Source: Paramacrobiotus metropolitanus (Eukaryota > Tardigrada > Eutardigrada > Parachela > Macrobiotidae). From it: a stretch of DNA of 64,000 nucleotides. The stretch covers positions 186,001 to 250,000 of the forward strand of contig NW_026570371.1 in NCBI RefSeq assembly GCF_019649055.1, read 5' to 3'. Position numbers and translations under genes: made by a program. The notes beneath the pieces are model-generated. The model saw nothing but the letters and a program-made list of their open reading frames with translations. It was not told the origin of the DNA and made no database searches. Positions 11,032-29,656 of the stretch are shown here, piece by piece (the first letter of the stretch is position 1; each line of letters starts with the position of its first letter).

Positions 11032-11033
11032 AA

Positions 11034-11049
11034 TGTGTGTGTGTGTGTG
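11034..11049 (+). repeat. GT microsatellite in the 3' flank of gene A
   Basis: A short GT run just past the stop codon; AATAAA-like signals follow at about 11091, 11142 and 11204. Confidence 0.7.
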
Positions 11050-11269: not shown

Positions 11270-11335
11270 TTAGAGAAAAAGAGAGAGAGAGAGAGCAAAA
11301 AAAAAAAAAAAAAAAAAAAAGAAGAAAGAAAGGAA
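11270..11335. repeat. GA-rich and poly-A simple repeat
   Basis: A GAGAGA run followed by about 24 A and a purine-only stretch, adjoining the right arm of the inverted repeat. Confidence 0.9.
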
Positions 11336-11367
11336 AGCCAGACGATAGCGAGCTGAGGCCACGCCGA

Positions 11368-11994
11368 CTCGCTACGCTCGGACCGCTGCCTTGTTTAGTT
11401 AGCTAACTGAATTGCATAGTAGTGATTGTTCTAACAATTGAAAGTTTTGTTGATATAATACCTTATTATATGTTGACCTAGAAAAACAAGTATTGTATTT
11501 CTCGACAGACAATAGAACCCAGACTAATGTGTCTAGACGTAAACAAAAACCCGGGCTAACACTGTCGCGACGAACCAGGATGACATTATATACGAAACAA
11601 AAATCCAAAGAATGTTTGACCTAGTAAACCAGGATTAATATCTGGCTCTTCTTTTGTACCCAGTGGATAACAAAAGATGGTTGAAACACTCAACGACATT
11701 CTACCTTTACTTAATGCAGAATAATTTCTAGGGAATAATAACTTTGCCTAATTGTTTCGGGCTCTATCACTGAATAAGCTCATACACTGAAAACAGGCTA
11801 GACTATTGTGCTAGACACAAATTAGACAGAACTTACTCAGAACTGATGACAAACACAGTTTAATGCTAATCCCAATACACTCAAGCATGCATAGTTGATT
11901 ACACACAACATTCGTACTAGTACAAAGCAAACACGGTTCATTTATACAGTTTCAGGCTAAACCTGTACGATAAAGACACTAAACAGAGAGCCCC
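11368..11994 (-). repeat. 627-bp inverted repeat, right arm
   Basis: Reverse complement of 8723-9349 with the same length. It lies between the 3' ends of genes A and B. Its palindrome box is at 11565-11570. Confidence 0.95.
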
Positions 11995-12090
11995 TATTAA
12001 CTGACAAAACATTGCGGCGAACTTACAAAAAAAAATAATAAAAAAACAATGCGGCGAATTTTTTAAAAAAGTGAAATGACCCGACAAGGT

Positions 12091-13165: not shown

Positions 13166-13340
13166 CGTGAAAGGTCACAGAACTAACTGAAAGCTAGTAA
13201 AACTAAACTGGTAAAGAAGGTACGGTAAAAGTAACTGTGAACAATCTAACAAACTAACGAGTCCAACTGATCCATGCGGTAATAATCCAGAAGGAATAAG
13301 AAAACTGTTGGAATGAAGGAAAAGCGCTTGGTCGCGCTGC

Positions 13341-13350
13341 TTATATAACT
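13341..13350 (-). promoter_or_regulatory. TATA box of accessory gene B
   Basis: Minus-strand GTTATATAAG followed by CTTCATTCCAACAGTTTT, matching gene A's promoter. An ACGTCA half-site (minus) is at 13422-13427. Confidence 0.8.
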
Positions 13351-13500
13351 CGAAATAACATGGAGTTTCAACTTTTGATTTTAACGATCTGTACGACCAA
13401 TTGTTTGAATTCGTTGTACGCTGACGTAATGTTAACAGAGCGCCGTTGACTAGACTGATTTTTAGTGTTTAGACCAAGAACCAACCAAATCCATCCCTAG

Positions 13501-13636
13501 AACAATGAGTGACCGGAATATGCTAATATCAGACCGAAACCAGGTGTGGGTATGGTCTAACTTACTCAACCAATAAGATACCACTTGGAAAACAAAGAAT
13601 GACTGGAACGCACTAATATCAGAGAGAAACCAAGTA
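13501..13636 (-). repeat. Two inverted promoter repeats upstream of gene B
   Basis: Minus-strand copies of the TCTGATATTAG unit seen before gene A, with ATTGGT between them. Confidence 0.75.
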
Positions 13637-13778
13637 GGCGTTACTCGGGTCCTGCCTTGCTCCTAACCAACGTTGCAAACTCACGCCTCCTGTTTATGAT
13701 GTCGGGAGATTCCACAAGATGAATAAGGTACGAGAGGCTTTGTCAGAACAATTGAGTTCTGAGGCAAAACATCCATTG

Positions 13779-14110
13779 TGTCTTGTTTTTCTGGGTCAAG
13801 CGACTTGTTGATTCACCGTTAATCCCGGATCCTGTCGCGACAGCAGACTAGATTCTATTATTCAAAACTGCCTCGTCTTTGTTTTAAGCGCCTTATTGAG
13901 GTACCCTGTTACGTATCATGTATCCGAGATTAGTCGCGACAGTGTCTAGATTCTTTTGTGAGTAAAACTAATTAGAACTTGTTTTTCTGGGTCAAACTAC
14001 CTTTCATTTGGTCCTTTCTCAGTCTCTGGAATCCGGACTTTGTCGCGACATTAGTCTAGTTTCCATTGTCCAAGAAAACCTAATGGAGCACGGTTTTTCC
14101 GGGTTCTAAC
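13779..14110 (+). repeat. Tandem palindrome-box array (three TCGCGA boxes) upstream of gene C
   Basis: TCGCGA cores at 13835, 13934 and 14043 (spacing 99 and 109). Each is followed by a TCTAG(A/T)TT-like box, and TTGTTTTTCTGGGTCAA-type phrases lie between them. The units are diverged copies of a roughly 100-bp repeat also present once in each arm of the 627-bp inverted repeat. Possible roles are binding sites for an element-coded protein, an enhancer or a replication element. Confidence 0.7.
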
Positions 14111-14375
14111 AATGGTTCTGCCTTAGCTCTTTGATTAGTAAGAATTTTCCATCGCACTCTCCGCCCACCGTATGTTTCCACCTCCTACTAAAGGGGATGG
14201 CTGCCCATAAGACCGAGCAACCCCTTTAATGGTATTTCTTGGTCTAGTAAAGGACTGGGGTTGTCTTTATTCATACAACCTTCAGGGAGACACAACTGCA
14301 CTAGAGAAAAACGACACATGGAACGTTCTAGCCAATAGGAGTCATTCGAAAAAATCTTCCAAGTTGCGCGCGGTG

Positions 14376-14383
14376 AATATAAA
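14376..14383 (+). promoter_or_regulatory. TATA box of accessory gene C
   Basis: AATATAAA about 95 bases before ATG 14478. A CCAAT box (AGCCAATAGG) and an AP-1-like GAGTCATT sit just upstream. Confidence 0.65.
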
Positions 14384-14477
14384 CCCATGTTTCTCAAGCA
14401 AATCCATCATTTTCTGCCGTTACATCATTTGGTCAGAATAGTTTGTGCTTGATTATCGTGTGATTGTGAGTGTACTC

Positions 14478-15517
14478 ATGGCTTTGCCGGATCCTATGCC
14501 CACAACTTCAGAAGAGCTTCCGGGATTGATTGGTAAGTCAATGATAATTTTTGGATCATGATTATTTTTTATTCTACTTTCGTACCTTTAAATACTACTA
14601 CTTTTCAATTTGGTCGTACCGTAGCGTTTTTTATTCGGTAGTGTAATGCATGTGATAGCATAACCTATTATTCTGTATTTCGATAAAATTCTGTAAGATT
14701 TTTTAACAATTTATCGAGACTAGAAAAGGTTTTTCTGTAGAGAAAGCGGATAATCTGATTGCGGAATGGAAGGGTTATACTCTTGCCGAGAAAATCCTAA
14801 CGTACTTCCACTCATACATTCAAGCTGTGCTTCTGTGGAATGAACTTTCGTGGTTAGTCTGTTGTGAAGGAGGACTTGCTGCGTTTTATCGGGTGTCTTG
14901 GTTCAAGGTAAACGTCTTTGGTTTTTTAGCAGTTAGTAACTAAATCGAAAATATGATTGTTTTTAATAAGCAATTAAAGTTTTTAAATATCAAAGGTTCT
15001 GAACCGTTGGAAAAGTTTCATTGCAATTGTCACTAGTGTAATGGTTTTCTCTTCAGTAAATGGTACAGCGAAAATACGTTTGGTTTTTTTGGATATTAGT
15101 TCTCGCACATCGTTTATTTGAATATTTTTTTGGTAGATTGACCTTGTCGACTTCTACAATAATCGTATAAAGACTGATCCTGACAACTCTATGGATTCTG
15201 GCTTCTTGGAGCACGATTCGGACGAAGCTGACAGTGACGTTGGCGACGAGAACGACGAAGGAGGCGTGGCCGTCCTAGCTGACGACACTTTTGACGAACC
15301 ACCATCAGAAGTGGAGAGCGAATTCGTGCCGGAAACTGAGGACGAGCTGGAGGCTACTTTGCTGCTGGAGGAACTTGACTTGGCTGAACGAGAGGAGCTG
15401 ATTGCGTACGTCAGTGGCGAGAAGCGTGGTCATTCGGAGGTGGACAACGACGGCGACGACGACAACAACGAACCGCCAGCCAAGAAGCAGGAGATCGAGG
15501 TGATTACTATTGATTAA
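14478..15517 (+). CDS. Accessory gene C: LxCxE-bearing acidic protein (Polinton, oncoprotein-like)
   Basis: From ATG 14478 the reading appears to carry two GT-AG introns (about 210 and 230 nt) and ends at 15517, giving roughly 200 residues. A predicted helical domain ends in the run WLVCCEGG, which contains L-V-C-C-E, a match to the LxCxE retinoblastoma-pocket motif. It is followed by a long acidic tract with casein-kinase-2-like sites (EHDSDEADSD). The tail has a basic PPAKKQ and ends EIEVITID, like the SIM-like motifs of gene A. LxCxE followed by acidic residues is the pattern of papillomavirus E7, polyomavirus large T and adenovirus E1A; adintoviruses are reported to carry such genes. The function is inferred from the motif only. 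Confidence 0.72.
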
Positions 15518-15873
15518 AACTGGTTCCATCAGTGCATTTTTTTCAACCCGTATTGTTTTTTTGAATGCTGTTTGTAACAATTGTTTTTTATGACCCATAT
15601 TTGCTGGTTGAATTTAGCTTATTGTTATTACAAAACGTGTTTTTTTTTTCGATAATGCAATCTCATTTCTTTGCTGTATCCGTTGTCAGCATTCCATTCA
15701 ACTGTGTCTTGTGATATGTATTATTATGATGGGGTGACGGAATCATATTACCCGGGCCGTAATGATGTAGCTGAATAATACAATGCTGCGCTTTTTCGGT
15801 GTTTTTAATAGGTAACTTATCAGAAACATACAATTATCGTCATACATTTTTCACGTTTAAACATGAAAGGGGG

Positions 15874-15916
15874 AGTGGTTACTTACCGGCGCTGCTAGCG
15901 CCGGTAAGTATCCACT
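15874..15916. promoter_or_regulatory. 43-bp near-perfect palindrome upstream of the polymerase gene
   Basis: Two 20-base arms with one mismatch flank a 3-base centre; the inner 13-base arms (ACTTACCGGCGCT and its complement) are perfect. It sits about 110 bases before the TATA box at 16027. It may be an operator, a hairpin or a replication element. Confidence 0.75.
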
Positions 15917-15968
15917 CGCGCCCACTGGAACGCCCAAAGGTGGGGCCTAGAAACACTGCTGACCAATT

Positions 15969-16035
15969 ACGTCACGTTGCAGAAAACGACAAACCAATGA
16001 GCACAATCTACGCTTTCGCATCTCGTCTATAAAAG
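15969..16035 (+). promoter_or_regulatory. Polymerase promoter: CCAAT, ACGTCA and TATA boxes
   Basis: ACCAATTACGTCACG at about 15962-15976, a second CCAAT at about 15994, and CTATAAAAG at 16027-16035, 38 bases before ATG 16073. Confidence 0.75.
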
Positions 16036-16072
16036 CCACGCGGCACGCGTTTTTCTCTTTATTCTTTCGAAA

Positions 16073-19000
16073 ATGGCTTACCAGTTGTCTGCTTCTGATC
16101 GTGAGGCTATCGCGGCCATGCTTAACGATCCGTGGATGGATGTTGATGATGATCATGCTAATACGTATCGCTTAACCACTGAGGATCAGGACGCCATTAA
16201 CCATATGCTAGCTAATCCCAATGAATTCAATGAACACGATGAGCAGACTCTCGTAACCGCCTTACTACATCACGACGAAGTTAATCAGTTAAGTCCAGAT
16301 TCTCTAGCTGCCGCCCTTGCTCTTGCACACATGGATGACTGGCAATATGAGGATCCACCGCAAGCCGGCGGAAGTGTAGCCAGGGGTGAGTCGATCCCGG
16401 ATTTCACAGGCCTCTTCCAGCTTGTCAAAGAATCGGAGCGCGTTTTCAAAACTTTCAACAGCACCGAACAGAAGTACCGCGTTGAAATTGCCCCCCTACC
16501 CCGAATTTTCCAAAAGGAAGAGACCATGCTCATTATGCCAGAAATCTTACGCGTCATAATGGATATGTGTTTTAAAGAGTTCGCTCCTACGGACCGTGTT
16601 GTTGTGGCTCTGAAATCCGACGGTCTCGAAAGAGCGTTCTACTTAACCATGCGGAAGCTTTCTGACTTCAGCATACCCGCGTTTTTGCATCGTATTGAGC
16701 TGTTGAACTCTGGGCAGAAGTTAGTCATTGACGATTCATTCACCATACGTATCTGGCGCTCTATTATGCCTGCTGGTGGATCCTGGTTTCTCAGACATCA
16801 GTACGTTAAGCATGACAAGAATCGTTTCAAGACGTCCATTGTATCCGTCCGTGTAAACAATAACCTATGCTTACCCGCCGCTCTGTTTCTGGGAAAATTT
16901 CGCCTGACGCATGATTTACAAGTGCCGCAGCATAAAAATAAATGGAACAACTATATACGCTCGGACCGCACAGCCAATCTGGAAGACCAAGCTGTGAAGA
17001 TAATGGAAGAGTGTCTTCTACCCCCTGGCCGTTACTGTGACCTTGATGACCTGGAAGTGTTGCAGAAGGAAGCCTTCCCAGAGTTCCAAATCAAAATCAT
17101 TTCAGCCAACCAGGGTGATATGATTATTGCACGGGTACCAGAGCGTAAAACCCATGATATGCAGGAAATCTTTCTGTTGCTGGACAATGAGCATTTTAAC
17201 CTTGTCACCACGGCTACTGGGTTCTACTGCTCCCCCTACTTCTGCAATGATTGCGATCGACCGTACCATCATAAAGAACGTCACCGCTGCGGAGGCAAGT
17301 GCAGATTGTGCTACCGTGCCAAGAGCAATTGTCTGGTGGATAATCCCGTCAACTGCACTGACTGTCACCGCCGCTTTCTCAACCAGCAGTGTTTCGACAT
17401 TCATAAAAGAACAAGGAAAAACGGGAAAACCTACTGCCAGACCATGTTCATCTGCCAGAAATGCGGAGTGTTTGTGAATCTTTCCACTCGGGGAAAGGAT
17501 GCAAAGCATCAGTGCGGTGAATTTTACTGCAACACATGCTACGGCTATTTCCTCCAAGCCAACCATTGTTGCTATATAAAGCCTCTGAAGGCGCCAGCAA
17601 CACCCTGGCTTGGCGATGAAGATATGAAATATATTTTCTTCGACTACGAAACCTACAATGATCCTGTGAACGGACACGTACCCTCGTGTATTGTGGCGCA
17701 GTACGCCGACGGTTCCGAAGTCCGCTTTCCAGAAGACGGTCAGCCGATGAATACGGAAGTTGGTGATGCTTTTGGTCGTTGGTTGCTTCAAGAGAAGCAT
17801 CGTGGGTTTACCATTATCGCGCATAATTTTCGGGGCTACGATGGGCATTTTGTCCTGAAGTATATGTTGGATAATGGATTGAAAGGGGTGGAGGTCATCA
17901 AACGGGGTACGCAACTGCTGGAATTGAAGTACCGCAAACTGGGCATCCAATCCCGAGATACACTCAACTTCCTGGCACTGCGGTTGAGTCAACTACCGAA
18001 GGCTGTTGGTTTGGAGCTTGAAGTGCAGAAAGGTGATTTCCCTCATCGGTTTAATAAGCCTGAGAATTGGGATAAAGTCGATTTGCCTTGGCCCGATCCG
18101 GATCAGTATATGATTGATGGGATGCGGAAGCAGCAGAAAGCTGAATTCCTCAAGTGGCACGCTGAAGCAAAAGCCGCCGCTAATGGAGTATTCAACTTTC
18201 GCGAGCAGATGATGACGTATTGCTCGAACGATGTTACGGTCTTGCGGCTCTGTGCGTTGAAGTTTATCAACGACTACCGTACACTCACTTCGTTGAATCC
18301 CATGGAGAGCATAACCATGCCCGCCGCCTGCTATCGCTACTGGAAAACCTTTCACCTTCCTGAAAACAAAGTCGCTGCCTTAGCCAGCCATGGTCCTCAC
18401 AGAAACCGACGCACCAGTATCCAGGCCGCGCAATGGCTGGAATGGGAGAATATGAGTGCTAATGGGCGCATACGCCATGGTCGAAACGGAAAAGAAGTCA
18501 AAATTGGTCGATACTTTGTAGACGGCCTCGACGAGGAAACCCAAACCGTTTACGAGTACAATGGCTGTGTTTTCCATGGGCATCCCGCTTGCACCGACGA
18601 AAACGATGTGGTCCCGTACTCCAAGAAGAAAATGCGAGAAGTCTACGAAGAATACCTAGAACGTGAGCGTTTTCTCGAAAGCCAGGGGTACACTGTGGAA
18701 GTGAAATGGGGTTGTGAGTGGCTCAGAGAGCGGGAGGATCCATTTATTGCCGGATTTTTGCAGCACACGAACATACGAGAGCCAATGAATCCACGTGATG
18801 CCTTCAAGGGCGGGAGGACAAACGCCAGTCGTCTATTTTACGAAGTAAAGCATGGGGAAGAAATTAGACACTTTGACGTTGTCAGCCTCTATCCCTTTGT
18901 GAACAAAACGAAGGCGTATCCAGTTGGTCAACCTGAAATAATCATATCCAATTTCAAGGATGTCAAAGATTATTTCGGGTTTGTTTACTGTAAAGTCGCT

Positions 19001-20160
19001 GCACCGGATGAATGCCTGTATCCAGTCTTACCGTTGACGATCAACGACAAACTGATGTTTGTTCTATGCAAAAAATGCGCAATGGAGAAAGTGACCAGCC
19101 GCTGTGTCCATTCCGATGAAGAACTGTCTTTCGAAGGGATCTGGTGCACACCAGAGCTACATCATGCGGTGGATGTGGGGTACCGGGTTGTCGAAATGTA
19201 CGAAGTCTGGCACTGGGCGCAGACGGACACCAAACTCTTTGCGGCGTATATGAATAAGTTTCTGAAAGTGAAAATGGAAGCAAGCGGTTGGCCTGCGTGG
19301 TGCGATACGGATGAGAAGAAGGCAAATTTCATTCAGATGGTCAAAGACCGTGAAGGTATTATCCTGGACCCTGACGCCATGGTTTTTGATGCCGGAAGGC
19401 GCTCGCCAAAGTCGCGCTGAATAGTCTTTGGGGTAAGACTGGCCAGAGCTGCGATATGAATTCCACGGAATTCGTGTACGATCCCAAACGATATTCTGAT
19501 CTGTGTCGTTCAAAAGCTATTGAGATTCATGATGTGTATGGTGTGAGTCCAACGTGTCTGATGGTAACACATTCGAAAGTGGATGACTACAACGAAGGTG
19601 GCAATGGAACGAATGTTGTTGTTGCCGCTTTCACCACAAGCCACGCACGTCTCATCCTGTTGGACCTCATGGAAAAGTTAGGTGAGCGACTTCTCTACTA
19701 CGATACGGACTCTGTGATTTTCGTTCACCGCCCTAACGACTGGCTTCCTGAAACTGGTAGTATCCTTGGTGACTGGGATAACCAGCTAGAAGCTGGCGAA
19801 AACCATATTGTCAAATTCGTCTCCTGCGGTCCGAAAGTCTACAGCTACGAAACAGATACGGGACGCATTGAAATGAAAGTGAAGGGAATGACGCAGAACG
19901 GGTTCACGGAAGATATTCTGGATTGGGACTCGGTTACGAAGGAGCTGACAAGGACCGGCAAGGCGTTGGATTTCAACCAGCTGAAGCGACTGCTGGAGGG
20001 TGTGGATGAACATGTGCAGGTCGTGTATCCGGAATACATCAAGCGGAATGGAAAAACGCAAGAAATTAATACTGTTCAATTGGCTAAAAAGTTGAAGCTT
20101 GTGTACGATAAACGCATCATGTTAGATGATTTCACAACGCTGCCCTTTGGCACGCGATAG
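16073..20160 (+). pseudogene. Protein-primed family B DNA polymerase of the Polinton (fossil)
   Basis: Start at 16073 is supported by the TATA box. The region shows, in order, an N-terminal domain; a cysteine/histidine-rich zinc-binding segment typical of Polinton polymerases (CNDCDRPYHHKERHRC onward); proofreading exonuclease motifs (FFDYETYND, AHNFRGYDGHF, YCSNDVTVL); an endonuclease-like insert (YEYNGCVFHGHPAC); and polymerase palm motifs (DVVSLYP and YYDTDSV). This enzyme copies the element by protein priming from the terminal repeats. The reading looks whole apart from about one break, so it is treated as a fossil. Family is certain. Confidence 0.95.
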
Positions 20161-20205
20161 AAAAAAGAGGTGGTGGGGAAAAATGAATAAAAGAAAGGGG
20201 AAAAA

Positions 20206-20406
20206 TCACTCGGTTTGTGTCGCTTCGTCACTCACCATCACATCCAACACTTCTTTCGTAATTTTTTTAGATTCCTCCAACTGTGTACGGTTGGAGGACT
20301 TTACAAAATAGGAAACAATTTCTAAAGTATTGAAAACTAATAGCAGCATGGTCACCAGTACTGCAAAGAATACTGATGCTGCTTTTTTAGCTATCGGCTT
20401 AACCAT
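20206..20406 (-). CDS. Small single-pass membrane protein at the end of the late block (Polinton)
   Basis: 66 residues; its start overlaps the end of the protease gene by 8 bases. A hydrophobic segment (ASVFFAVLVTMLLLVFNTL, about residues 10-28) is followed by a charged tail ending SDEATQTE. TQT within this context resembles the dynein light chain LC8 binding motif used by several virus proteins. No family recognised; a virion or membrane role is possible. Confidence 0.55.
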   Translation of the reverse strand: MVKPIAKKAASVFFAVLVTMLLLVFNTLEIVSYFVKSSNRTQLEESKKITKEVLDVMVSDEATQTE

Positions 20407-20899
20407 TTCTTATAAGGTCGCGTATAAATGTTGCGTCGCGGACTACCGTCCTTAGTCGGAAGAACTTGTTGATGAATTTGCATACAAATTTATCGTTCAC
20501 CCCTTTATGCTTAGTGAGAGCTGACATGACATCTTTATATGAAAACCCGTAGCAACGAAGTAAAACAAAAAACATGCAATATTGACCGCATACAGTACTG
20601 TCAGTGTTTTGGCGTTCAGTGTTTGACATTATGACAAAGTCATCATTTATCCATTTTTTAATGTCATCTGAATAGTCTCCGGGATTTTTCCCGTATGAAT
20701 CAAAAACTTCTATCGTACCGGGTTTTGTACAATAAAATGCTACCCAGTGTTCACCCGCCGCGCCTGACGGTTGAGTATTTGATATGTATGCACCTGGAAA
20801 TTCTTTTACTGGTAATGTATCGCTGGCAAATACCCCAACAAAAATATTGCGAACGTTGGGATCTTGCTTCAGCGCTGTTTCTATTTGTAGGCTGTTCAT
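20399..20899 (-). CDS. Adenain-like cysteine protease (Polinton PRO)
   Basis: 166 residues, close to the usual length. The catalytic set is visible: His51 in GEHWVAFY, Asp67 in VFDSYG and Cys104 in STVCGQYC, the order found in adenovirus protease and Polinton PRO. It would cleave capsid and core precursors during maturation. It overlaps the major capsid gene upstream by 4 bases (ATGA) and the membrane-protein gene downstream by 8. Confidence 0.93.
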   Translation of the reverse strand: MNSLQIETALKQDPNVRNIFVGVFASDTLPVKEFPGAYISNTQPSGAAGEHWVAFYCTKPGTIEVFDSYGKNPGDYSDDIKKWINDDFVIMSNTERQNTDSTVCGQYCMFFVLLRCYGFSYKDVMSALTKHKGVNDKFVCKFINKFFRLRTVVRDATFIRDLIRNG

Positions 20900-22242
20900 G
20901 GTGCGAAGTCAAAAAGTACTTGGCGATTGTTGTTAATTTCGATAATATTATCGAAGACCATCATAGCTACACAGACTATACCTTCTGGTAGTGGTTTTGC
21001 AAATTTAACATTGATGTTTAAATTACCCTGCCTTATCAACGACAATGCTCCTCTACCCGTGTGGCCGCGAGTGAAGTCAAACCCGAAGATATTAAAACCA
21101 CCCTTGTTAAATACCGTCCTATCAAAAGGTAGCTCCCCATGGCCTTCATGCAGCCGCTCCAGAGTATCTAACAATCCTTCGTATCCCTCAATTGACGCGC
21201 CGTTCTGGAAATCTAGGTTATACCCACGCGTAGGAAAAAGCTGTCCATCAATTTCCGCACTTAAATTAGATATGTTGAAATGATGGAAATTGAATGGTGT
21301 CGATTTAAATTCGCCAACGAATGAACGATTGGGCGACATCGCGAAGAACATAACTTTGGGTAACTGTCCAATAACAATATTTGCCCAAGATAGCTGCTGC
21401 TGGCCAGATTGCATTGTTGTCTGTCTCAAAGCGACCCGTTCAATATGATATTTTGCATTAGTTGTGACCAGTTGTTTTGTCATGGCTGCTAAAAAGTCTG
21501 GAGAAGGCTCATACTTTCGAACTTTCAGCTTGGGGTTTCGAATAGCAAAATTTTTTGGAGCCGCTAGATCACTATCAGCAAGAAAACAAAGATTAGCTCT
21601 GTTTCGTATCAGTTTAATGCTCAACTCTACACCTGGAATTAGCGGTCGGTCTTGCTGAAACAGATCGCAATGTAGTTTACCAGACAACTGCAACGGACGA
21701 AAAGTCTGCAACCATGTTCTGCGCGTTTCAGCTCCCTCACTATGAAACGTTGCTGACCCATTTATTTCATTTGTGTATAACGGGTCTTTGTCAAGGTCAG
21801 TATCTAACGCAAATCCGCACAGGGTCAACTGACTGTTCTGAGCCTGAACAGTGAAACCCAAGAGGGATTCAATGTACGCTCGAATGTGGTACAAAGGGCT
21901 GTTATCGGTTATATTGCGACCACCCAGTGAAACCGTAACTGACTGGAATAAACTATGTAAAATATTGTTAATCGGGGCAAGACAGTCTTTGTCTGTTGGA
22001 ACAGCACCAGAAGAGTTAGTAACGTGTAAATCACATGAAAACCTAATGTCAGCTAAACTGATAAGCTCGGTTTGACAAGGTGAAATTGTAAATACAATAT
22101 CGTTTGAATCGTCGGTCACGGCTTGAGACGGCCCCAAGTCATAGTCATGTGTATTCCACCTTTCCGTAAGCGTCGCTGGAAGATAGAACAAATGACTTTC
22201 CAACAGCATGGAGGGTTCTGAGCCAGCTTCAATAAGAGCCAT
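20896..22242 (-). CDS. Major capsid protein, double jelly-roll type (Polinton)
   Basis: 448 residues. The start MALIEAGSEPSMLLESHLFY and segments such as WNTHDYDLGP, PINNILHSLFQSVTVSLGG and DNSPLYHIRAYIESLLGF are characteristic of the Polinton and adintovirus hexon-like protein, annotated in animal genomes as F54H12.2-like. It would build the icosahedral shell. It sits between the small core-like gene and the protease, the usual order. Confidence 0.92.
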   Translation of the reverse strand: MALIEAGSEPSMLLESHLFYLPATLTERWNTHDYDLGPSQAVTDDSNDIVFTISPCQTELISLADIRFSCDLHVTNSSGAVPTDKDCLAPINNILHSLFQSVTVSLGGRNITDNSPLYHIRAYIESLLGFTVQAQNSQLTLCGFALDTDLDKDPLYTNEINGSATFHSEGAETRRTWLQTFRPLQLSGKLHCDLFQQDRPLIPGVELSIKLIRNRANLCFLADSDLAAPKNFAIRNPKLKVRKYEPSPDFLAAMTKQLVTTNAKYHIERVALRQTTMQSGQQQLSWANIVIGQLPKVMFFAMSPNRSFVGEFKSTPFNFHHFNISNLSAEIDGQLFPTRGYNLDFQNGASIEGYEGLLDTLERLHEGHGELPFDRTVFNKGGFNIFGFDFTRGHTGRGALSLIRQGNLNINVKFAKPLPEGIVCVAMMVFDNIIEINNNRQVLFDFAP

Positions 22243-22244
22243 CG

Positions 22245-22628
22245 TTACAGTTTGTCTTTTATAGCGTCTATCGCGCGTTGACGTTTCGTGGTTTTGATCA
22301 TTCTCTTTCGACGACGACCCTTAATACCCGACCCCTGTTGTTGGGTTGTGTTGCGTAATTTCTCGCTAACACGCTCAACAGCTTTATCGATTACAGATTC
22401 CACAGCCTTGCTGGCCATTGTTTTCATGTGAGGTTGTGCAGTGGCAATTAAATTGTTTATATGCGGTGCAGCTTTGCTGAACAAACCCTTTGCAAAGCCA
22501 ATTACACGACCCCAGAAACTACCACCTTTCATGGGTGCGCCACGATAATATGGCATACCGTACCCATGCTGCTTGGTAAAGATCTGGGTGTAGCGGTGCT
22601 CGTCAAATTTTAACTCTTGTAGAACCAT
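22245..22628 (-). CDS. Small basic virion-type protein (Polinton, adenovirus core/pVI-like)
   Basis: 127 residues with YYRGAPMKGGSFWGRVIGFA and SKAAPHINNLIAT-type amphipathic stretches, then a very basic tail (GRRRKRMIKTTKRQR). Glycine-rich, amphipathic, basic proteins in this place are compared with adenovirus minor core or membrane-lytic proteins. It is two bases from the next gene on either side. Confidence 0.75.
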   Translation of the reverse strand: MVLQELKFDEHRYTQIFTKQHGYGMPYYRGAPMKGGSFWGRVIGFAKGLFSKAAPHINNLIATAQPHMKTMASKAVESVIDKAVERVSEKLRNTTQQQGSGIKGRRRKRMIKTTKRQRAIDAIKDKL

Positions 22629-22630
22629 TT

Positions 22631-23398
22631 TTAATGCTTCTTTGGTCGAAAGTGAAGTTTAATTACTGATGTACCGGGATGAAAGAGTACTTCTTTCCCT
22701 AAATCATCGCGCAACGCTATTTCTACGGTTTGAAATGTATGGTAGGCTAACGGCATATAATGCGGATTCTCGAAACGAATTACTGTCTCTCGAAATGAAT
22801 TCGCTTGAGTTGATAAGGTGCGTAGTAAAGGTACCATTGAATCACCTACCAACCCATGTGTAATCACGTCACAATACACGTGCACGAGACGATTATGCTG
22901 TCCCGGATATAACATATGAGTCAGGGCATCTCTGCTGTTATAAGTGTACTGGTGTAGTATGCCTAATGCGCGCGCATATTCAGAGCCCGTAAAAGTCAAA
23001 GCGAGGCCTGGTGCGATGTTTAACTGAGCTGCTTGACCACTGACCATTATTTGACCAAAGGTTTTCGAGTCCCTATCCTCTACGTCTTCCCTCAACAGTT
23101 TGTTAACCGTATGAAGTAAATGATTTTCATCCTCAAAAGCATGTACATCGACAAATCTAGTAAATCTAGACGGTAGACCGTCACGCGAGACAGTAATGGC
23201 TAATCCGGTATTAAACTTTATCCGCATAGGGGGTAGAATAATTTCTGAAAGACCAACTTCCCACGCACCGTCTAAATCTATGGGTCTAGCGAGAAGCGTT
23301 GTAAATTTACCAGGGCAGTTTTCAGAGTATAAGCCCTCTGACGCCGAAGACGGCAAAGTCATGTAAAAACTCATTTCAAATCTTCTTTGTTTTCCCAA
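22631..23398 (-). CDS. Minor capsid (penton-like) protein (Polinton)
   Basis: 255 residues. The N-terminal signature SFYMTLPSSAS...YSENCPGKFTTLLARPIDLDGAWEVGLSEI (split here) is the familiar Polinton penton protein pattern, a single jelly roll at capsid vertices. It overlaps the integrase gene upstream by 28 bases. Confidence 0.88.
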   Translation of the reverse strand: MGKQRRFEMSFYMTLPSSASEGLYSENCPGKFTTLLARPIDLDGAWEVGLSEIILPPMRIKFNTGLAITVSRDGLPSRFTRFVDVHAFEDENHLLHTVNKLLREDVEDRDSKTFGQIMVSGQAAQLNIAPGLALTFTGSEYARALGILHQYTYNSRDALTHMLYPGQHNRLVHVYCDVITHGLVGDSMVPLLRTLSTQANSFRETVIRFENPHYMPLAYHTFQTVEIALRDDLGKEVLFHPGTSVIKLHFRPKKH

Positions 23399-24456
23399 GA
23401 GTCATAAGCTGGACCGTATCCATACCAACGTACTAAGTATTGTACTTTTCCTTTATGTCTCCTTTCCCTTAATATCCTGGAGATCCTATGATATGGCTTT
23501 TCTTCCATTGTGACTTTAGATAACTCTTCCGGATAAAACTTACCATCCACGGGTTCGCCAGCTAAATCTTCGACAGTGTAAAGGTAATGGCTTCCACTCC
23601 GTGTAGTGTGAGTTATTTTAAAGATTTCTTCTGTGAAACGAGTCTCGTAACCTTTCTCAAAAGTCTGTTTCTTTTTTGCCAAACGTACATGATCGCCAAC
23701 AGCAAATGTTGGTTTTGAATTTTTCCTATCTTTCTGTTGATCAATCATCTTCTGGAGAATTTGCTCAGCTTCCTCAGGCCCTACATCTTTAGGGGCTATA
23801 CCTGTAGCAGAGTGTTTTGTGGAGTTGTAAGCGGATAAAACCTTAGGAAGGACATCTATGAACCGATACGTGTTGTTTTCGGTCATGAACACATATAACC
23901 GCTCTTCGATTGTGCGATTTAGACGTTCAACCATCGCACATTTTACGTCATCGTTTTTCGTTGTAAAAAATGTAACGTTACACTCTTCAAAAAACTTACG
24001 CATGTCTTTACTAACAAATTCCTTACCATTATCGCTTTGAACACGTAATGGAGGACAGTCACTCTTGTATATTTTTAAAAGCGCTTCGCGAATATCAGCT
24101 GGTCGTTTTGATTTAACCGGCTCAGCCCATGCATAACGAGAAAAGCAGTCGATGCACATAAGAATATACTTAAAGCCATCGTTATAACTTGCAAATTTCT
24201 GAAAGTCCACAAGATCAATTTGATGTTGGTCGCCCACATTAACAGAAATAATCTTTCGACGCTTAAACTTAGAGCGAAAGGGTTTGTGTTGTGTATATGC
24301 ATCTTTGGTTTCTAAGTAAGCTTTAACTTGCTTTCGTGTATATCCATGTTTTCTAGCTTCTTTGTACAAGCGATCTATACCCCCTAAACTGCCTTGAGAA
24401 GCAGGATTCAAATACAAATCATCTAAAGTGGGCTTCATCATGTGTATGAGAGCCAC
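23371..24456 (-). CDS. Integrase, rve family with C-terminal chromodomain (Polinton INT)
   Basis: 361 residues. The DDE triad is visible as Asp81 (QIDLVDF), Asp142 (QSDNGKEF) and Glu177 (VERLNRT), with a D-to-E spacing of 35. A chromodomain (YLVRWYGYGPAYDSWENKEDL) closes the protein and may bias insertion toward marked chromatin. It makes the 6-bp duplication seen at the ends. Confidence 0.95.
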   Translation of the reverse strand: MALIHMMKPTLDDLYLNPASQGSLGGIDRLYKEARKHGYTRKQVKAYLETKDAYTQHKPFRSKFKRRKIISVNVGDQHQIDLVDFQKFASYNDGFKYILMCIDCFSRYAWAEPVKSKRPADIREALLKIYKSDCPPLRVQSDNGKEFVSKDMRKFFEECNVTFFTTKNDDVKCAMVERLNRTIEERLYVFMTENNTYRFIDVLPKVLSAYNSTKHSATGIAPKDVGPEEAEQILQKMIDQQKDRKNSKPTFAVGDHVRLAKKKQTFEKGYETRFTEEIFKITHTTRSGSHYLYTVEDLAGEPVDGKFYPEELSKVTMEEKPYHRISRILRERRHKGKVQYLVRWYGYGPAYDSWENKEDLK

Positions 24457-25544
24457 CCGCCTCTTTGTATACCCCCCTTGTGTCTTTTAGCGGGAGGTTC
24501 TGAAGTTTTATTACGTTTCCTCAATTGGGTTTTGGCCTGACTTGAACTTTCAGGTTTATATGTTAGAGCTTTTAACGCCACTGCATCGGTAATAGCTGTC
24601 TGCTCTTTCCCACTGGCTTCGATTGCTAACCTGTGAGACCCAGTGGCAATTGCTGCCCTTTGCTTAGGTTTTGGTGTGACTTTTTGGAGCTTGTTGGACG
24701 TTTTCGGCTTAATTGCCACGGTTTTCGAACCTTCAATAGCAAGTTGCTGATCTTTTTCCTTTCGACGGAGCTTGTTTACAGTTTTCGGTTTGACGGCCAC
24801 CGCTTTTGACCTTTCAATAGCTAGCTGGTTATTTTCTAAAGCCGGAACAGCTCCACTGTCAGGTATTTGATATTCTAATACACCGTCAACTGGAAATTCA
24901 ACTATCGGAACACTAGGTGGAGTAGGAGCGTATTCTATAGCAGCTTTTAAAGTGGTATCGGATTTTGGAATGCGTCTTACATGGACTTTTTTAACCAAAG
25001 GTGGTTTTTTCGGCTTCCGATAAACGTGTTTAACCACAGATTTGCTTGGAACAAATTGTATTTGTGGCTCACCGGGCACTTGTACAAATTGTACAGCTGG
25101 TTGGGATGGCACCTCAACAACCTTAACTACTGGATCGGACTGGATGTACTCAACTAAAGGTGGAGCTGTTGCTTGATTACCCTGTTCATGAAATGTCGGA
25201 ACAGCCTGGACCGCTTGATGGGTTATGTTTGGACCTGCTTGAGTATATTGATCTTTAAGAACACCCGTGGAATGAGCTTGTACACTTTTATCAATCATTG
25301 TGGGTAATAGGTTGGGAACCGCTATTGGTTCAACTTGCACTGCTTCCAATATTGGAGCCGCGACTGGAGCGTTACCCGTATTGTTTAAACGCTGGTACTC
25401 AAAAGCGGCCTTGGCCATGAGCTGTTGTGTAATTTCATGACCAATCTCTTGAGCTTTTTTCCAGGCAGTCGGCGCGGGAACACCTTCCCGAGCATGCTTT
25501 TGTTTTAAAAATTCGGTTTCGGGGACTAAAACGTACGTCTTCAT
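24438..25544 (-). CDS. Pro/Val/Lys-rich structural-block protein of unknown function (Polinton)
   Basis: 368 residues. The N-terminus (YVLVPETEFLKQKHAREG) is of a type commonly seen in Polinton structural blocks. The rest is low-complexity with repeated LAIE-(R/G)SK-(A/T)VA-(V/I)KPKT units and a basic end. It overlaps its neighbours by 4 and 19 bases. A virion scaffold or DNA-binding role is possible; not recognised. Confidence 0.7.
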   Translation of the reverse strand: MKTYVLVPETEFLKQKHAREGVPAPTAWKKAQEIGHEITQQLMAKAAFEYQRLNNTGNAPVAAPILEAVQVEPIAVPNLLPTMIDKSVQAHSTGVLKDQYTQAGPNITHQAVQAVPTFHEQGNQATAPPLVEYIQSDPVVKVVEVPSQPAVQFVQVPGEPQIQFVPSKSVVKHVYRKPKKPPLVKKVHVRRIPKSDTTLKAAIEYAPTPPSVPIVEFPVDGVLEYQIPDSGAVPALENNQLAIERSKAVAVKPKTVNKLRRKEKDQQLAIEGSKTVAIKPKTSNKLQKVTPKPKQRAAIATGSHRLAIEASGKEQTAITDAVALKALTYKPESSSQAKTQLRKRNKTSEPPAKRHKGGIQRGGWLSYT

Positions 25545-25861
25545 TTTGCTAGAAAAGTGGAAACTAAAGTACCTAAAACAGGTAGCAAAACGTTGAGAAA
25601 TCCACCTTTTTGTTGTAATATTTTACGTTTCTTTGATCGGTCTGTACTGCGGTCAGCTAGACGCTTGATTGTTGAAGAATGTTTTCGAGCCCGAGCTAAA
25701 TCAACTTTGCTAAGGCCGGTGGGTTGCTTAACTAGATTTAAGCAGGCTTCTTCGATTGCGCTTATTTGTTGCTTAGTTGCCAGCTGGAAAAAGCTTCTTC
25801 TCTGACGTGGTGTCAGCAGCTTTAACGCTTCAATAAGTCGAAAAATTTCTTCTGGTTTCAT
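25541..25861 (-). CDS. Small virion-type protein with C-terminal hydrophobic segment (Polinton)
   Basis: 106 residues. It is helical and basic, with the ending QQKGGFLNVLLPVLGTLVST, a glycine-hydrophobic tail frequent in small Polinton and adenovirus core-type proteins. It overlaps both neighbours by 4 bases (ATGA), so it may be translated by reinitiation. Confidence 0.72.
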   Translation of the reverse strand: MKPEEIFRLIEALKLLTPRQRRSFFQLATKQQISAIEEACLNLVKQPTGLSKVDLARARKHSSTIKRLADRSTDRSKKRKILQQKGGFLNVLLPVLGTLVSTFLAK

Positions 25862-26493
25862 TTTTCTACATATATTCGTCTATACTCAAACACGTGCGAC
25901 TGAAGGCGAACATCGTCTGGAGCTTCGGGTCTAAGATTTATCAGTAAATATCCAAAAGGCTCCTTTATAGCCTTTCGGTAGGCCTCCAGCATATGTGGCA
26001 TACCTAACTGACGTGCAAGTGTTTTAACTTGCTGAACGTCACGAACTGATTTAAAAATTACCAAGTACTGAGAATTCAAAGCAATGTCACGCATGCTTCT
26101 TCCTTGTTTGTATAAATTTTGAGAAATGAAAATTACAGAAACATTTTTGTGATGAACGTCACGAGTAAAAATCGTCGAACACTTTGGCGTTCCAGCAATT
26201 TCTTCCATTAAATCATCTAACACTAGCAGACTCGGAACGTCTTTGTCAAAAAAATTTTCATCTTCTAAGATGGGTCTAAGCCCCTGGATAAGTTCAATAT
26301 TTTTATCAAAACCCTGGAAGGCATTTTGCCACGTACCGTAAGCATATACTATTCTTACTGGTGGTGGATTAAAGCTTTCCGTAAGACTTTGCAAAAGTTT
26401 CATTGTAAAAGTCGATTTTCCCGACATCGTTGGCCCAGAAATATAAATGGTGCACGGAGTTTTAAAGCGAAAATCAAAACTCAGTTTTTCCAT
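25858..26493 (-). CDS. FtsK/A32-type genome-packaging ATPase (Polinton ATP)
   Basis: The frame is open to 26565, but the ATG at 26493 (MEKLSFDFRF) gives the usual length of about 211 aa and begins just ahead of the conserved core. Walker A is GPTMSGKST and Walker B is SLLVLDDLMEE. It pumps the genome into the capsid. Confidence 0.92.
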   Translation of the reverse strand: MEKLSFDFRFKTPCTIYISGPTMSGKSTFTMKLLQSLTESFNPPPVRIVYAYGTWQNAFQGFDKNIELIQGLRPILEDENFFDKDVPSLLVLDDLMEEIAGTPKCSTIFTRDVHHKNVSVIFISQNLYKQGRSMRDIALNSQYLVIFKSVRDVQQVKTLARQLGMPHMLEAYRKAIKEPFGYLLINLRPEAPDDVRLQSHVFEYRRIYVEK

Positions 26494-26583
26494 TTTAAAT
26501 TTCTCCTGACTTAGTCTGCTAACTATCGAACACTTCACAGTATATTCGATCACAAAAACTCTCAAATGGTGTTTCTGAAATGA

Positions 26584-27258
26584 TTAGATTTCTCGTTTCT
26601 TCGACACCGAAGTGGTGTAATTTTCAAGGAGGTTTTTAATTTGTTCAATTGTGCGTTTAATCTGCAACAGTGATCTCGCTCCCAGAATTACACACTTTCC
26701 AGTATGGAAAACGTTAACGGTAGTTTTCAATAATGGGAACCGTAGTTTGATGGCTGGAAAAAGCTCAGGTTCATAGAAGAATGCGATACCCGTTGGCTTT
26801 TGTTTTAAAATTTGGCTATACAGCTTGTTCAAATTTATTATTTCACTGTAGGCGTACGTACAGACTATATTTGCCACAAAGCGCTCCTTAATAGTAACGT
26901 CGATACAATTTGCAATCAACATTCGCAAATACTGTTCTAACAGCCCATTCGATTCTTCAACGGACTTACCACCTATTACGATTGCCTTGCCATTTTGGAA
27001 AATCTGGCAGAATGTATGTGACTGCCCTATTAGTCTGATGTTGACTGCGTTAAAATTTTTCACCTTCGTAGCATGTTTCCCGAAAACTTCTAGGACTTGT
27101 TGAAGATCAACTTCCTCGTTGAACTGCACCGCCAGAATAACGTTGTGGATTTCCATGACTGAACGCATTACTTGCAACAGTGTCAGCAAGAAGGCTTTAT
27201 ATACTTCACTGCTGAGACTGTCGCAAATAACGGCGTTTTTCAGCCTTTTTTTTCGCAT
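26584..27258 (-). CDS. TATA-binding-protein (TBP) homologue encoded by the Polinton
   Basis: 224 residues with the two-repeat saddle of TBP. Repeat 1 (about 39-122) has NVILAVQF, IRLIGQSHTFCQIF and NGKAIVIGGKSVEES; repeat 2 (about 129-213) has NIVCTYAY, FFYEPELFPAI, TVNVFHTGKCVILGAR. The DNA-kinking phenylalanines in IFQNGK and VFHTGK and the YEPELFP turn, nearly invariant in eukaryotic TBP, are present. Starts at residues 31 or 35 are also possible. It heads the minus-strand structural block, whose genes show no obvious TATA box, while the accessory and polymerase genes do. It might direct RNA polymerase II to element promoters; that is inference. Confidence 0.88.
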   Translation of the reverse strand: MRKKRLKNAVICDSLSSEVYKAFLLTLLQVMRSVMEIHNVILAVQFNEEVDLQQVLEVFGKHATKVKNFNAVNIRLIGQSHTFCQIFQNGKAIVIGGKSVEESNGLLEQYLRMLIANCIDVTIKERFVANIVCTYAYSEIINLNKLYSQILKQKPTGIAFFYEPELFPAIKLRFPLLKTTVNVFHTGKCVILGARSLLQIKRTIEQIKNLLENYTTSVSKKREI

Positions 27259-27336
27259 AACAAGGGAGTTAACACGTAATAAACAAGAATACCAACAACA
27301 ACAACAATTTTAAAATGTTAAAAACGAAAAGCGCAG

Positions 27337-27897
27337 TTAAACAATAAGGGCTTGCGCTTTAAAACTATCGTCCAGGATTCGGGCCACATCAAGGAATCCC
27401 ATGTATGGCAGTTGAACAGAGCGCCCTGGTTGAGAAAACCTGATCGTACGCCCGTACTTCTCGTGCACCTTCAGAGTCAACTCCAGGCAGGCGGGGCCAT
27501 CGAATTTCATTTTCTCCTGTTTGCCTTCGGATGCTGCGTGATCCAGTGTGTCTTTCAGATGTCCATTCTTCAAGATCTTCAGTAGTTCGGTAATTTCATT
27601 GTATCCGAATCGGATCCCTTTATTCCATGCTTTACGCAAGCCCTCAGCATCCGCATTCGCTTCGAACACAAGAAATGCCCGTACTTCTTTAGCATTCCAG
27701 AACAGACTTACCACACTATTGACTTTGTATACAGTGTAGCCGTCATGATCGCCAACAACATCCAAAATACGTGCGAAATCCATTTTTGCTCTCGTGATAT
27801 TATGATAATAGAACTTGCTCTCAACTTTTTGCAGAATGATTTGGAAAAGCCAAGCCGCGTCGGTTTTATACTCGCGGATTGTTTCCAAAGAAGCCAA
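27337..27897 (-). CDS. Unidentified protein, divergent from the ARH3-BIR gene (Polinton)
   Basis: 186 residues from 27897, or 148 from the ATG at 27783 if the minus-strand TATA box at 27862-27871, which lies inside the longer frame, is used. Globular composition with segments such as VVSLFWNAKEVRAFLVFEAN and GRSVQLPYMGFLDVARIL. I recognise no family. It shares a 300-base intergenic region with the ARH3-BIR gene. Confidence 0.65.
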   Translation of the reverse strand: MASLETIREYKTDAAWLFQIILQKVESKFYYHNITRAKMDFARILDVVGDHDGYTVYKVNSVVSLFWNAKEVRAFLVFEANADAEGLRKAWNKGIRFGYNEITELLKILKNGHLKDTLDHAASEGKQEKMKFDGPACLELTLKVHEKYGRTIRFSQPGRSVQLPYMGFLDVARILDDSFKAQALIV

Positions 27898-27950
27898 AGT
27901 CTCACCCTATTGGGTGTAAATTCTCGCATAACCCCGCCTTTTTCACACAT

Positions 27951-28160
27951 ACGTCACTGGCAAACTGGAAAAAGTTTACTATGTCGATGATTGGTCGGAA
28001 AATCGAAAAAAACTACACCCTCATACACTGCGTAACCATACTGATTGGTCAAACAGCCCGTGACGTACCTCGGAAATTCAAAAAATTATTTGGAAATGAG
28101 CGTTGTGATTGGTCCAAAATTAAACTGGGGGGCTAACTGTTTTTTTCTGATTATATTTAA
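27951..28160. promoter_or_regulatory. Bidirectional promoter region between 27897 and 28201
   Basis: ACGTCA half-sites at 27951-27956 (+) and 28061-28066 (-), three GATTGGTC (reverse CCAAT) boxes at about 27989, 28043 and 28107, and a TATA-like TTATATTTAA at 28151-28160 serving the plus-strand gene. Confidence 0.65.
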
Positions 28161-28200
28161 GAGCTGGAGTTGCGTTACACAATTATCATTTGCAGAGAAA

Positions 28201-29424
28201 ATGGAGAAAGATCAGTTTCGCGGTTGCTTAGTCGGCGGCCTACTCGGGGAATGCTTGTGCGCTCCTTTGAAGGCATACAATGGTATTGTCCATAAGGTAG
28301 CGCAAATGTTTGTTGATACTCGAGATTACCGCTCTCATCGTGAAAAAACTGTATTAACAAACGCGCTTGGTAACGCATTGTTAAATGACGGTGGTTATGA
28401 TACAGCGAGTGCCGCTCGTGCATGCGTTAACGCATATTACAATGCACACCCCGTCATACGTTCGGCTTTTGGAGAGCTAAAAGATATAATACATCACTGG
28501 AAGTGGAGCAATTATGAATCCCTTGACACATTGCCGAATAAAATCGTACCACGTGTATACCAAAAAGGATATGGTCCTGCTGCGTGGATTTCAGCGTATC
28601 CACTATACTTCAAACATCAGACAGAAATAATGATCAGCAACGTACGTAACGTCGCCGAACTTACACATCCTACGATGGAAGCTTACGGGGCATCTGAGCT
28701 TCAAGCCTACGCTATTGCCGTAGCATTGCAATATCCCAACTTTACTCCCGCACAGTTTCTGGACATGCTAATCACTCTGTGTGACTCAGGCGTTAGCCTA
28801 CAGCTGTATCAATCAAAATTAGTGCACATAAAAACTCTACTGTCTCAAGAGACAAGTGTTGTGGTGAAAGCCCTTGGCAATGATTCCTCGGGACTGCAAG
28901 CTGTGCCTATGGCTATTTACTGTGTGATCAAAGGAGCCGATCTATCGCCTAAAAATGCTTTTGAAGCAACCATGGCACTTACACTACGTGTTGGTGGATG
29001 TACGGACGGAATCGCAACCCTGGCGGGCGCTATTGCCGGAGCTTGGCACGGTCTCAAAAGCATACCATCGGCGTGGTTTGAACTGTGTGACGGGTATAAG
29101 AACAGTATTACGCTAGCCGACAAACTTGCCGAACACGCCAGCAACACCCTAACCGATCGCGAAATTGATGATTTCGGCAACTACAGCACTTTAGGATCGC
29201 GTTTGGAGTCGTTCAAAGGTTGGCCACATCTCAAACCCTCTCCCATGGAATTAGCTGGAAATGGATTTTTTCATTTTGGTTCACTAGACTGTGTTCAATG
29301 TTATTACTGCGAATGTGAACTTAGAAATTTTGAGCCTCTCTCTGATCCGCGTTGGGATCACTTATGTAAGAAGCGCAACTGTCCGGCTACCAATGTTCCT
29401 GATAATTTATTTTTTCACTTGTAA
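28201..29424 (+). CDS. ADP-ribosylhydrolase (ARH3-like) fused to a BIR domain (Polinton accessory gene)
   Basis: ATG 28201, 41 bases past the TATA box, is preferred over the longer frame; it gives 407 aa. Residues 1 to about 320 follow ARH3/ADPRS: QFRGCLVGGLLGECL at the start, GYGPAAWISAYPLYF, LTHPTMEAYGASELQAYAIA, and TDGIATLAGAIAGAWHGL near the end. Residues about 335-400 form a BIR: RLESFKGWP, LAGNGFFHFG, CYYC...H...C. ARH3 removes ADP-ribose from serine and poly-ADP-ribose, and BIRs bind caspases or other partners. I know of no described fusion of the two. Whether the hydrolase half is active cannot be judged by eye. It closes the right end of the element, as the IAP closes the left. Confidence 0.88.
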   Translation: MEKDQFRGCLVGGLLGECLCAPLKAYNGIVHKVAQMFVDTRDYRSHREKTVLTNALGNALLNDGGYDTASAARACVNAYYNAHPVIRSAFGELKDIIHHWKWSNYESLDTLPNKIVPRVYQKGYGPAAWISAYPLYFKHQTEIMISNVRNVAELTHPTMEAYGASELQAYAIAVALQYPNFTPAQFLDMLITLCDSGVSLQLYQSKLVHIKTLLSQETSVVVKALGNDSSGLQAVPMAIYCVIKGADLSPKNAFEATMALTLRVGGCTDGIATLAGAIAGAWHGLKSIPSAWFELCDGYKNSITLADKLAEHASNTLTDREIDDFGNYSTLGSRLESFKGWPHLKPSPMELAGNGFFHFGSLDCVQCYYCECELRNFEPLSDPRWDHLCKKRNCPATNVPDNLFFHL

Positions 29425-29445
29425 ATATCATGAATAAATCTGCTA

Positions 29446-29650
29446 TCATGTTCATTCATGTTCATACAAAAAAAAAAGAGGGTGGGGAAAAATAAACAAA
29501 AGAAAGGGGAATTCAGTTCGGCTCCAAACCGGTTCAAATCGGCTCCAAACCGGTTCAATCGGCTCCAAACCGGTTCGACTGAAAACCGGACCGAAACCGA
29601 GCCGAACCGGACCGAAACCGAGTTGACGGTAGACTAGCGGCATATCTTCT
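29446..29650 (-). repeat. Polinton right terminal inverted repeat (205 bp)
   Basis: Reverse complement of 7558-7740 with one additional 21-bp CCGGTT unit and one longer homopolymer. An AATAAA signal for the ARH3-BIR gene lies just inside, at about 29433. Confidence 0.95.
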
Positions 29651-29656
29651 TACTAC
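29651..29656. repeat. Polinton target-site duplication, right copy
   Basis: TACTAC, identical to 7552-7557. Confidence 0.95.

Follow-up and report, generated by a model that had tools for sequence, protein, structure and literature searches.

A TATA-binding protein gene in Polinton/Maverick elements of Paramacrobiotus metropolitanus: a candidate altered-specificity TBP for late genes

Many eukaryotic DNA viruses have been proposed to descend from Polintons, and we know of no account of how these elements time their capsid genes. The window analysed here, i.e. the whole 64,000-nucleotide stretch of a contig of the tardigrade Paramacrobiotus metropolitanus, contains a minus-strand open frame (26584-27258) that raises a key question: does it encode a TATA-binding protein (TBP) that belongs to a Polinton and, if so, which genes could such a protein serve?

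The TBP gene and the element that carries it

The frame specifies 224 aa and has the motifs IFQNGK, VFHTGK and YEPELFP, all of which had been pointed out in the initial annotation. The Pfam family PF00352 was matched with an E value of 9.2e-25 (86.8 bits against a cut-off of 22.9) in two stretches corresponding to both saddle repeats, which bears out the proposed identity. TBPs in the PDB were matched by sequence over residues 33-211 of the element protein (E 4.3e-10), its AlphaFold2 model, built with 30 aligned rows, has a mean pLDDT of 90.7, and in a Foldseek comparison of the model with the PDB, ranks 1-44 were, by title, TBP or TBP-containing initiation complexes (best E 3.1e-14). The frame encodes a full two-repeat TBP, the fold of which is predicted. 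The element in which it lies has the following features (window positions; the classes are defined below).

7552..7557 (left) and 29651..29656 (right), no strand: 6-bp target site duplication TACTAC flanking the element
7558..29650, no strand: complete Polinton/Maverick of 22,093 bp with ends AG...CT, terminal inverted repeats (TIRs) and the 6-bp duplication
7558..7740, plus: left TIR, 89% identical to 29446-29650 over 205 columns
7754..8500, minus: IAP-like protein with two BIR domains and a RING, accessory (PF00653 3.6e-37, RING 4.8e-12)
16028..16035, plus: TATA box TATAAAAG upstream of PolB
16073..19420, plus: PolB, N-terminal and middle part (PF03175 1.4e-41), the frame then being broken in the window copy
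19456..20160, plus: putative C-terminal part of PolB, from its position and strand after the frame break
20399..20899, minus: cysteine protease candidate, adenain-like (weak PF00770, E 0.04, below the cut-off)
20896..22242, minus: major capsid protein (MCP) candidate, from position and size
22245..22628, minus: small protein p127, conserved within the block
22631..23374, minus: minor capsid (penton) candidate, from position; conserved within the block, no Pfam match
23371..24441, minus: integrase with rve core and chromodomain (PF00665 1.9e-13, PF00385 3.5e-9)
24438..25544, minus: block gene p368, matched in class A copies only
25541..25861, minus: p106, conserved block gene
25858..26493, minus: packaging ATPase (A32/FtsK-like), head of the structural block (weak Pox_A32, 0.0078, below the cut-off)
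26553..26563, minus: putative late box of class A, GAGAGTTTTTG, 70 nt upstream of the ATPase ATG
26584..27156, minus: TBP gene, ~190 aa from the probable start (PF00352, TBP fold, homologue starts)
27196..27203, minus: TATA box of the TBP gene, TATATAAA, 47 nt upstream of ATG 27156
27337..27783, minus: p148, class A neighbour of TBP, with a TATA box at -87
28201..29424, plus: ADP-ribosylglycohydrolase-BIR fusion, accessory (PF03747 1.7e-27, PF00653 2e-13)
29446..29650, minus: right TIR, partner of 7558-7740

The start of the gene had been set at 27258; it is instead probably ATG 27156 (or 27168), as judged from homologue starts and the upstream TATA box. Homologues of the lineage to which the window TBP belongs begin at or near Met 27156 (MEI, MDI, MEM, MIH), and copy L040 has a frame that opens just ~20 residues ahead of MEI, so that no ATG precedes the TATA box in this copy. 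We judge a coding N-terminal extension (27157-27258) to be unlikely, since the TATA box sits inside this stretch.

The element is recognizable as a Polinton/Maverick by its PolB, its rve integrase with a chromodomain, its TIRs, its 6-bp duplication and its packaging ATPase, and the TBP gene sits within it, in agreement with the earlier claim that the gene belongs to a Polinton. Several homologues of the ATPase carry PF04665. The MCP candidate had 99 genome matches (identity 100 to 42%) and no match in Pfam or PDB, the capsid assignments being made by position and size; the frame at 19456-20160, searched alone and not joined to the PolB frame, had no DNA-polymerase match in Pfam. Among the PHROGs families, TBP had no match, the ATPase weakly matched an ATPase family (4.4e-5) and p368 weakly matched a family without an assigned function. 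The scanned element frames matched no RNA polymerase family in Pfam, and host Pol II is therefore presumed to act on the element.

Several other observations concern the element and its surroundings. The PolB frame is broken at 19420-19456, and the host TBP gene (G000:C4) is also broken, in a run of A, so that assembly errors may account for part of such breaks. The two accessory proteins with BIR domains (7754-8500 and 28201-29424) are perhaps directed at host defence. The segment 8723-11994 has inverted arms of 627 bp that are 100% identical and is perhaps a recent nested insertion. The stretches 9569-9921 and 13283-13633 are inverted relative to each other and 75% identical, each with a TATATAA box pointing into the intervening region, which contains genes with apparent introns. 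The products of 10504-11031 and 15191-15517 have in common an EVITID/EVITLD motif, which we take to resemble a SUMO-interaction motif. A 40-nt A/G-rich stretch occurs after PolB (20161-20200) and within the right TIR (29472-29509) with 90% identity. The element is flanked by two stretches, 2447-4907 and 30456-33007, that are 70-76% alike and are probably two tandem P450 copies, the right one having pieces of a P450 gene.

Recurrence, placement and relatives

These data lead to the question of whether TBP entered a single copy by chance or is a standing gene of such elements. Two TBP searches of the genome, with ~150 matches listed each, were merged and gave at least 196 TBP-like loci, one of which, at C4, is the host TBP gene. 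A related ATPase or MCP-candidate match was present within 20 kb of 145 of the 196 listed loci, compared with a mean of 5.6 and a maximum of 13 when positions were shifted by 60-250 kb. Counted from the other side, TBP lies within 20 kb of 131 of 150 ATPase loci and of 84 of 92 MCP-candidate loci. Vertebrate Mavericks (PMC8097293) are similar to the window element in having PolB, a chromodomain integrase, a packaging ATPase, protease and capsid candidates, TIRs and a 6-bp duplication; unlike their eight-gene core, the P. metropolitanus elements add TBP. The absence of TBP from the eight core genes listed there agrees with its initial description as lying outside the Polinton core set.

Views of element TBPs with flanks of up to 1.5 kb (36 views of 35 distinct loci, L020 and L033 being one locus) contained a core gene in 23 cases, an ExoL frame in 28 and one or the other in all 36, while two flanked views of the host TBP locus contained neither. 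ExoL is our own label for a frame that adjoins TBP at class B and class D loci (L066:3290-3760, L064:456-1007, L069:759-1475), where TBP follows it; this frame had no Pfam match above the cut-off, and P0066 had no useful PDB match.

The loci were classified by the position of TBP relative to the ATPase gene. In class A (73 of the 196 listed loci), TBP is just upstream of the ATPase on the same strand; in class B (42), it is 3-12 kb downstream; and in class C (13), the two genes are head-to-head. The remaining listed loci comprise eight with another placement, the host gene and 59 for which no ATPase match was listed; in some of these 59, close reading found an ATPase next to TBP that is decayed or diverged, and these loci are referred to as class D. 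In nine more copies read piecewise, the visible genes kept the order ATPase-p106-p368-integrase-penton-p127-MCP-protease, with p368 matched in class A only and some pieces decayed or outside the stretch. Since the placement of TBP differs by class around this stable block, the gene has at least three positions. Its proximity to the ATPase, which it adjoins at 86 of the 195 listed non-host loci (73 of class A and 13 of class C), would fit a role outside transcription, in which TBP bends TIRs or packaging signals during replication, integration or packaging; however, class B TBP is mostly ~7 kb from the ATPase and the TFIIB-contact residues are conserved (see below), and we regard such a role as very unlikely.

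Relatives were also found elsewhere. A profile of element TBPs retrieved 63 proteins, nearly all of which we take to be metagenomic (jgi, ena and lgn records), with P0051 coming from P. metropolitanus itself; an ATPase profile retrieved 313, and the 120 of these that were listed include one from the tardigrade Ramazzottius varieornatus and one from the fish Astyanax mexicanus. Outside P. metropolitanus, eight TBP/ATPase pairs have the same source and an identical length of the longest contig, a pairing that is based on matching lengths and not on contig names, and a ninth equal length (644) was left out, as the source differed. Jittered lengths gave a mean of 0.9 pairs (maximum 5) against these eight, and for lengths above 1,500 bp, which all eight exceed, a mean of 0.22 (maximum 2). 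Searches of IMG/VR with TBP alignments A2 and A3, with the MCP candidate, both as a single protein and as A6, and with the ATPase (A7) gave no relatives; TBP alignment A4 gave three loci (L059, L060 and L061) with archaeal-virus-like TBPs, at which none of the other element proteins was matched by tblastn. P0001 had no match in genome_contigs, and P0025 matched three phage records, which belong to two haloviruses.

The comparison with host TBP that had been suggested at the outset was made in a tree of 95 rows, which included 51 of the 63 profile-found proteins, the shorter or partial ones having been excluded beforehand. Host TBP grouped with human TBP (100/100), to which it is 86% identical over 154 columns, and the element and environmental TBPs were placed together, away from this pair (97/92), in a set that also contains P0060 and two archaeal-virus rows. 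Within it, class A and seven environmental rows formed one group (100/97), and classes B-D and 41 environmental rows formed another (100/95); the two archaeal-virus rows, which have long branches, came out next to class A (98/85), but we do not trust this placement. The dN/dS ratio was 0.07-0.33 in 17 of 25 element TBP pairs, the other eight having saturated synonymous sites.

A chance host insertion, which had been named among the findings that would undo the initial claim, is ruled out by the number of loci, mostly within elements, and by the tree position. That the host TBP gene was captured recently, or that a single insertion produced an artefact, is likewise scarcely credible in view of the same recurrence, the long separation from host TBP and the relatives elsewhere. 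TBP is thus a standing gene of a Polinton group in P. metropolitanus, with relatives elsewhere.

Protein surfaces and promoter boxes

Which DNA could such a protein recognize, and which partners could it recruit? Residues were tallied in 84 distinct family rows, after P0058, P0060, P0064, L061 and one duplicate had been dropped and with archaeal-virus and cellular rows uncounted; for residue numbers and roles, we assume yeast numbering for DNA contacts and human numbering for cofactors. The four aromatics that wedge into DNA are kept almost throughout (F 82/Y 2; F 19/Y 65; F 83/I 1; F 84), the repeat-1 stirrup aromatic being Y in 65 of 84, and the two TBP Asn are kept in 82 and 77 rows. Among the TFIIB contacts, E286 is present in 81/84, E284 in 51/84 and L287 in 55/84, while the TFIIA contacts are mostly lost (R205 1/84, N189 1/84, E191 8/84, A184 9/84). 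The absence of the TFIIB-contact Glu E284 from all 11 class B TBPs counts against the explanation preferred below.

The base-reading residues, of which host, human and two archaeal TBPs have the canonical set, are changed across the family: L114Q occurs in 80/84, T124N in 79/84 and T215L in 81/84, with the triple Q/N/L in 74/84, and V203T and L205V occur in 68 and 56 rows, respectively, and together in 40. The window TBP has Q, I, L, T and N at 114, 124, 215, 203 and 205. With the base readers changed in this way, binding of the element TBP to TATA boxes may not hold. A laboratory altered-specificity TBP, as reported in PMC2731028, binds TGTAAAG by virtue of three substitutions, two of which are V203T and L205V (mapped here from the Xenopus numbering used there); the 40 element TBPs with both changes are similar to it in this respect, but the element proteins are natural, have L114Q, T124N and T215L in addition and, in the rows tallied, have no Phe at 194. 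Our best reading is that the element TBP may be a naturally occurring TBP of altered specificity that serves late genes.

Another important question is whether the promoters of the element fit such a reading. Earlier, the structural genes had been described as lacking visible TATA boxes and the accessory and polymerase genes as having them. At -100 to -25 of the assumed starts in the window, TATAWA or TATATTTA was found in six of eight non-structural genes and in none of nine structural genes, so that the contrast between the two sets stands, but the TBP gene, which had been counted with the structural block, has a TATA box itself. Outside this interval, TATA occurs at MCP (-21), p106 (-108), INT (-119), p66 (-133) and one accessory gene (-128). 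Of 16 copies in which the PolB start could be located, many of them close relatives, 15 retain the PolB TATAAAA, and of four further copies without a located start, two are of class B and have TATAAA farther upstream. Upstream of TBP, a TATA box was found in 11/12 sequences of class A (a set differing in the last 60 nt), 0/9 of class B, 1/7 of class C and 0/6 of class D; since TBP in classes B and D lacks a TATA box of its own, an order in which host TBP simply acts first does not hold throughout.

The motif search in the 5' flanks that the initial annotation had proposed yielded conserved non-TATA boxes at the block heads of classes A and B. Ahead of the class B ATPase gene, ATTWAAG was present at -10 to -76 in all 16 distinct sequences (from 22 elements) and TATTWAAG in 12 of 16, with TATAWA in none; shuffled sequences gave a mean of 0.74 for ATTWAAG and 0.19 for TATTWAAG, with a maximum of 3 for each. 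Class A heads have a GGAGATTT-like box near -70, with the same spacing in five diverged elements, and 0 of 200 shuffles reached its score; the box was found in eight of nine located heads, with a pattern written after the fact and with three near-duplicates among them. About five independent elements underlie the motif. TATAWA was absent from these nine heads. For 20 further class A heads, the ATPase start was located by tblastn in none and by the P-loop in three, one of which has no class A box. Three heads, two of class C and one of class D, showed no ATTWAAG.

A box ahead of every structural gene was not found in the starts tested: upstream of structural genes other than ATPase, ATTWAAG occurred in 1/32 cases in class A and 3/20 in classes B-D, or in 1/41 and 5/29 with ATPase and TBP starts included. 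As the motif is not general before the other structural genes, the block would have to be transcribed as a single long RNA or from promoters that escaped notice. The gene strand in classes B-D has an ATTWAAG background of 0.109 per 120 nt and the other strand one of 0.018, so part of the strand bias is background. In addition, TATTTAAG also precedes an accessory gene (28154), which counts against the preferred explanation, and host TBP may tolerate TATTTAAG too.

These findings bear on two alternatives in which the protein would not read boxes of its own. If the element TBP had ordinary specificity and added TBP activity where host TBP is limiting, the kept DNA-bending residues and TFIIB Glu, as well as the ordinary TATA boxes of the early genes of the element, would be expected; the replacement of the base readers together in most members, against their canonical state in host, human and two archaeal TBPs, and the block heads without TATA make this unlikely. 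As a decoy, the protein would sequester host TFIIB or sit on host promoters and in this way shut down host transcription or defence; this would match a kept TFIIB face and a lost TFIIA face and would be in keeping with other likely host-manipulating genes in the element (IAP and ADP-ribosylglycohydrolase-BIR); yet a TFIIB trap needs no wedging aromatics, which are kept as F/Y in 83 or 84 of 84 rows per site, and the conserved non-TATA boxes that occur alongside would be left unexplained, so that we consider a decoy quite unlikely.

A proposed late transcription programme

The explanation that we prefer, and hold to be rather more probable than not on the grounds of residues and promoter boxes, is an altered-specificity element TBP that would drive the structural block late, with DNA binding, TFIIB recruitment and timing all put forward as predictions. 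Host TBP would first transcribe the genes with TATA boxes, i.e. PolB, the accessory genes and, in class A, also TBP. The element TBP would then bend DNA through its kept aromatic wedges and would still present the TFIIB contact; with its base-reading floor changed, it would use the non-TATA boxes of the element itself and put host TFIIB and Pol II on them at the block head, on GGAGATTT-like boxes in class A and on TATTWAAG in class B. Capsid genes would thereby be made late and from element DNA only. The early/late switch suggested in the initial annotation is in part consistent with the data, namely with the TATA boxes of PolB and of class A TBP and with the other boxes at the block head; it fares less well in that ATTWAAG is not general in the block.

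A further step would be that TBP and its promoter box co-diverged within one mobile-element family, giving a late programme that acts via host TFIIB and Pol II and is blind to host promoters. We regard this as a serious possibility, slightly short of an even chance; under it, T124N/I and L205N/K/H in class A would go with the GGAGATTT-like boxes and L205V in class B with TATTWAAG.

Virus-encoded TBPs are already known, and what appears to be new here is the family-wide change of the base readers with the wedges and the TFIIB Glu kept. African swine fever virus encodes a TBP, B263R (PMC5825884), and giant viruses and mirusviruses (PMC10132985) also encode TBP, as the element does, but mirusviruses in addition encode RNA polymerase subunits, none of which was matched in the scanned element frames. 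The best viral structural match to the element TBP in BFVD is 23% identical. The nearest working analogy for the proposed behaviour is the late factor of beta- and gamma-herpesviruses: LTFc is TBP-like and is used with host Pol II at the TATT boxes of late genes (PMC12197705); unlike the element protein, which is a compact TBP core, it acts within a six-protein complex and shows little identity to TBP. In the literature on Polintons, Mavericks, adintoviruses and virophages, which was covered partly by title, with most subscription papers outside the coverage, and which included the available parts of PMC8097293, PMC11071308, PMC10675990 and PMC10132985, we found no report of a TBP in a Polinton; a tardigrade transposon paper names Maverick once (PMC11071193).

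Because most lineages of one group retain a TBP whose DNA-reading residues have changed together, the timing of capsid genes becomes directly testable. If the preferred explanation is true, the engineered altered-specificity TBP would have its counterpart in nature, present in these elements as dozens of diverged copies of which many lie beside a candidate promoter, and the protein-DNA co-evolution of a general transcription factor would be readable from sequence. If the co-divergence of TBP and box is true as well, a 22-kb animal element would own its late transcription programme.
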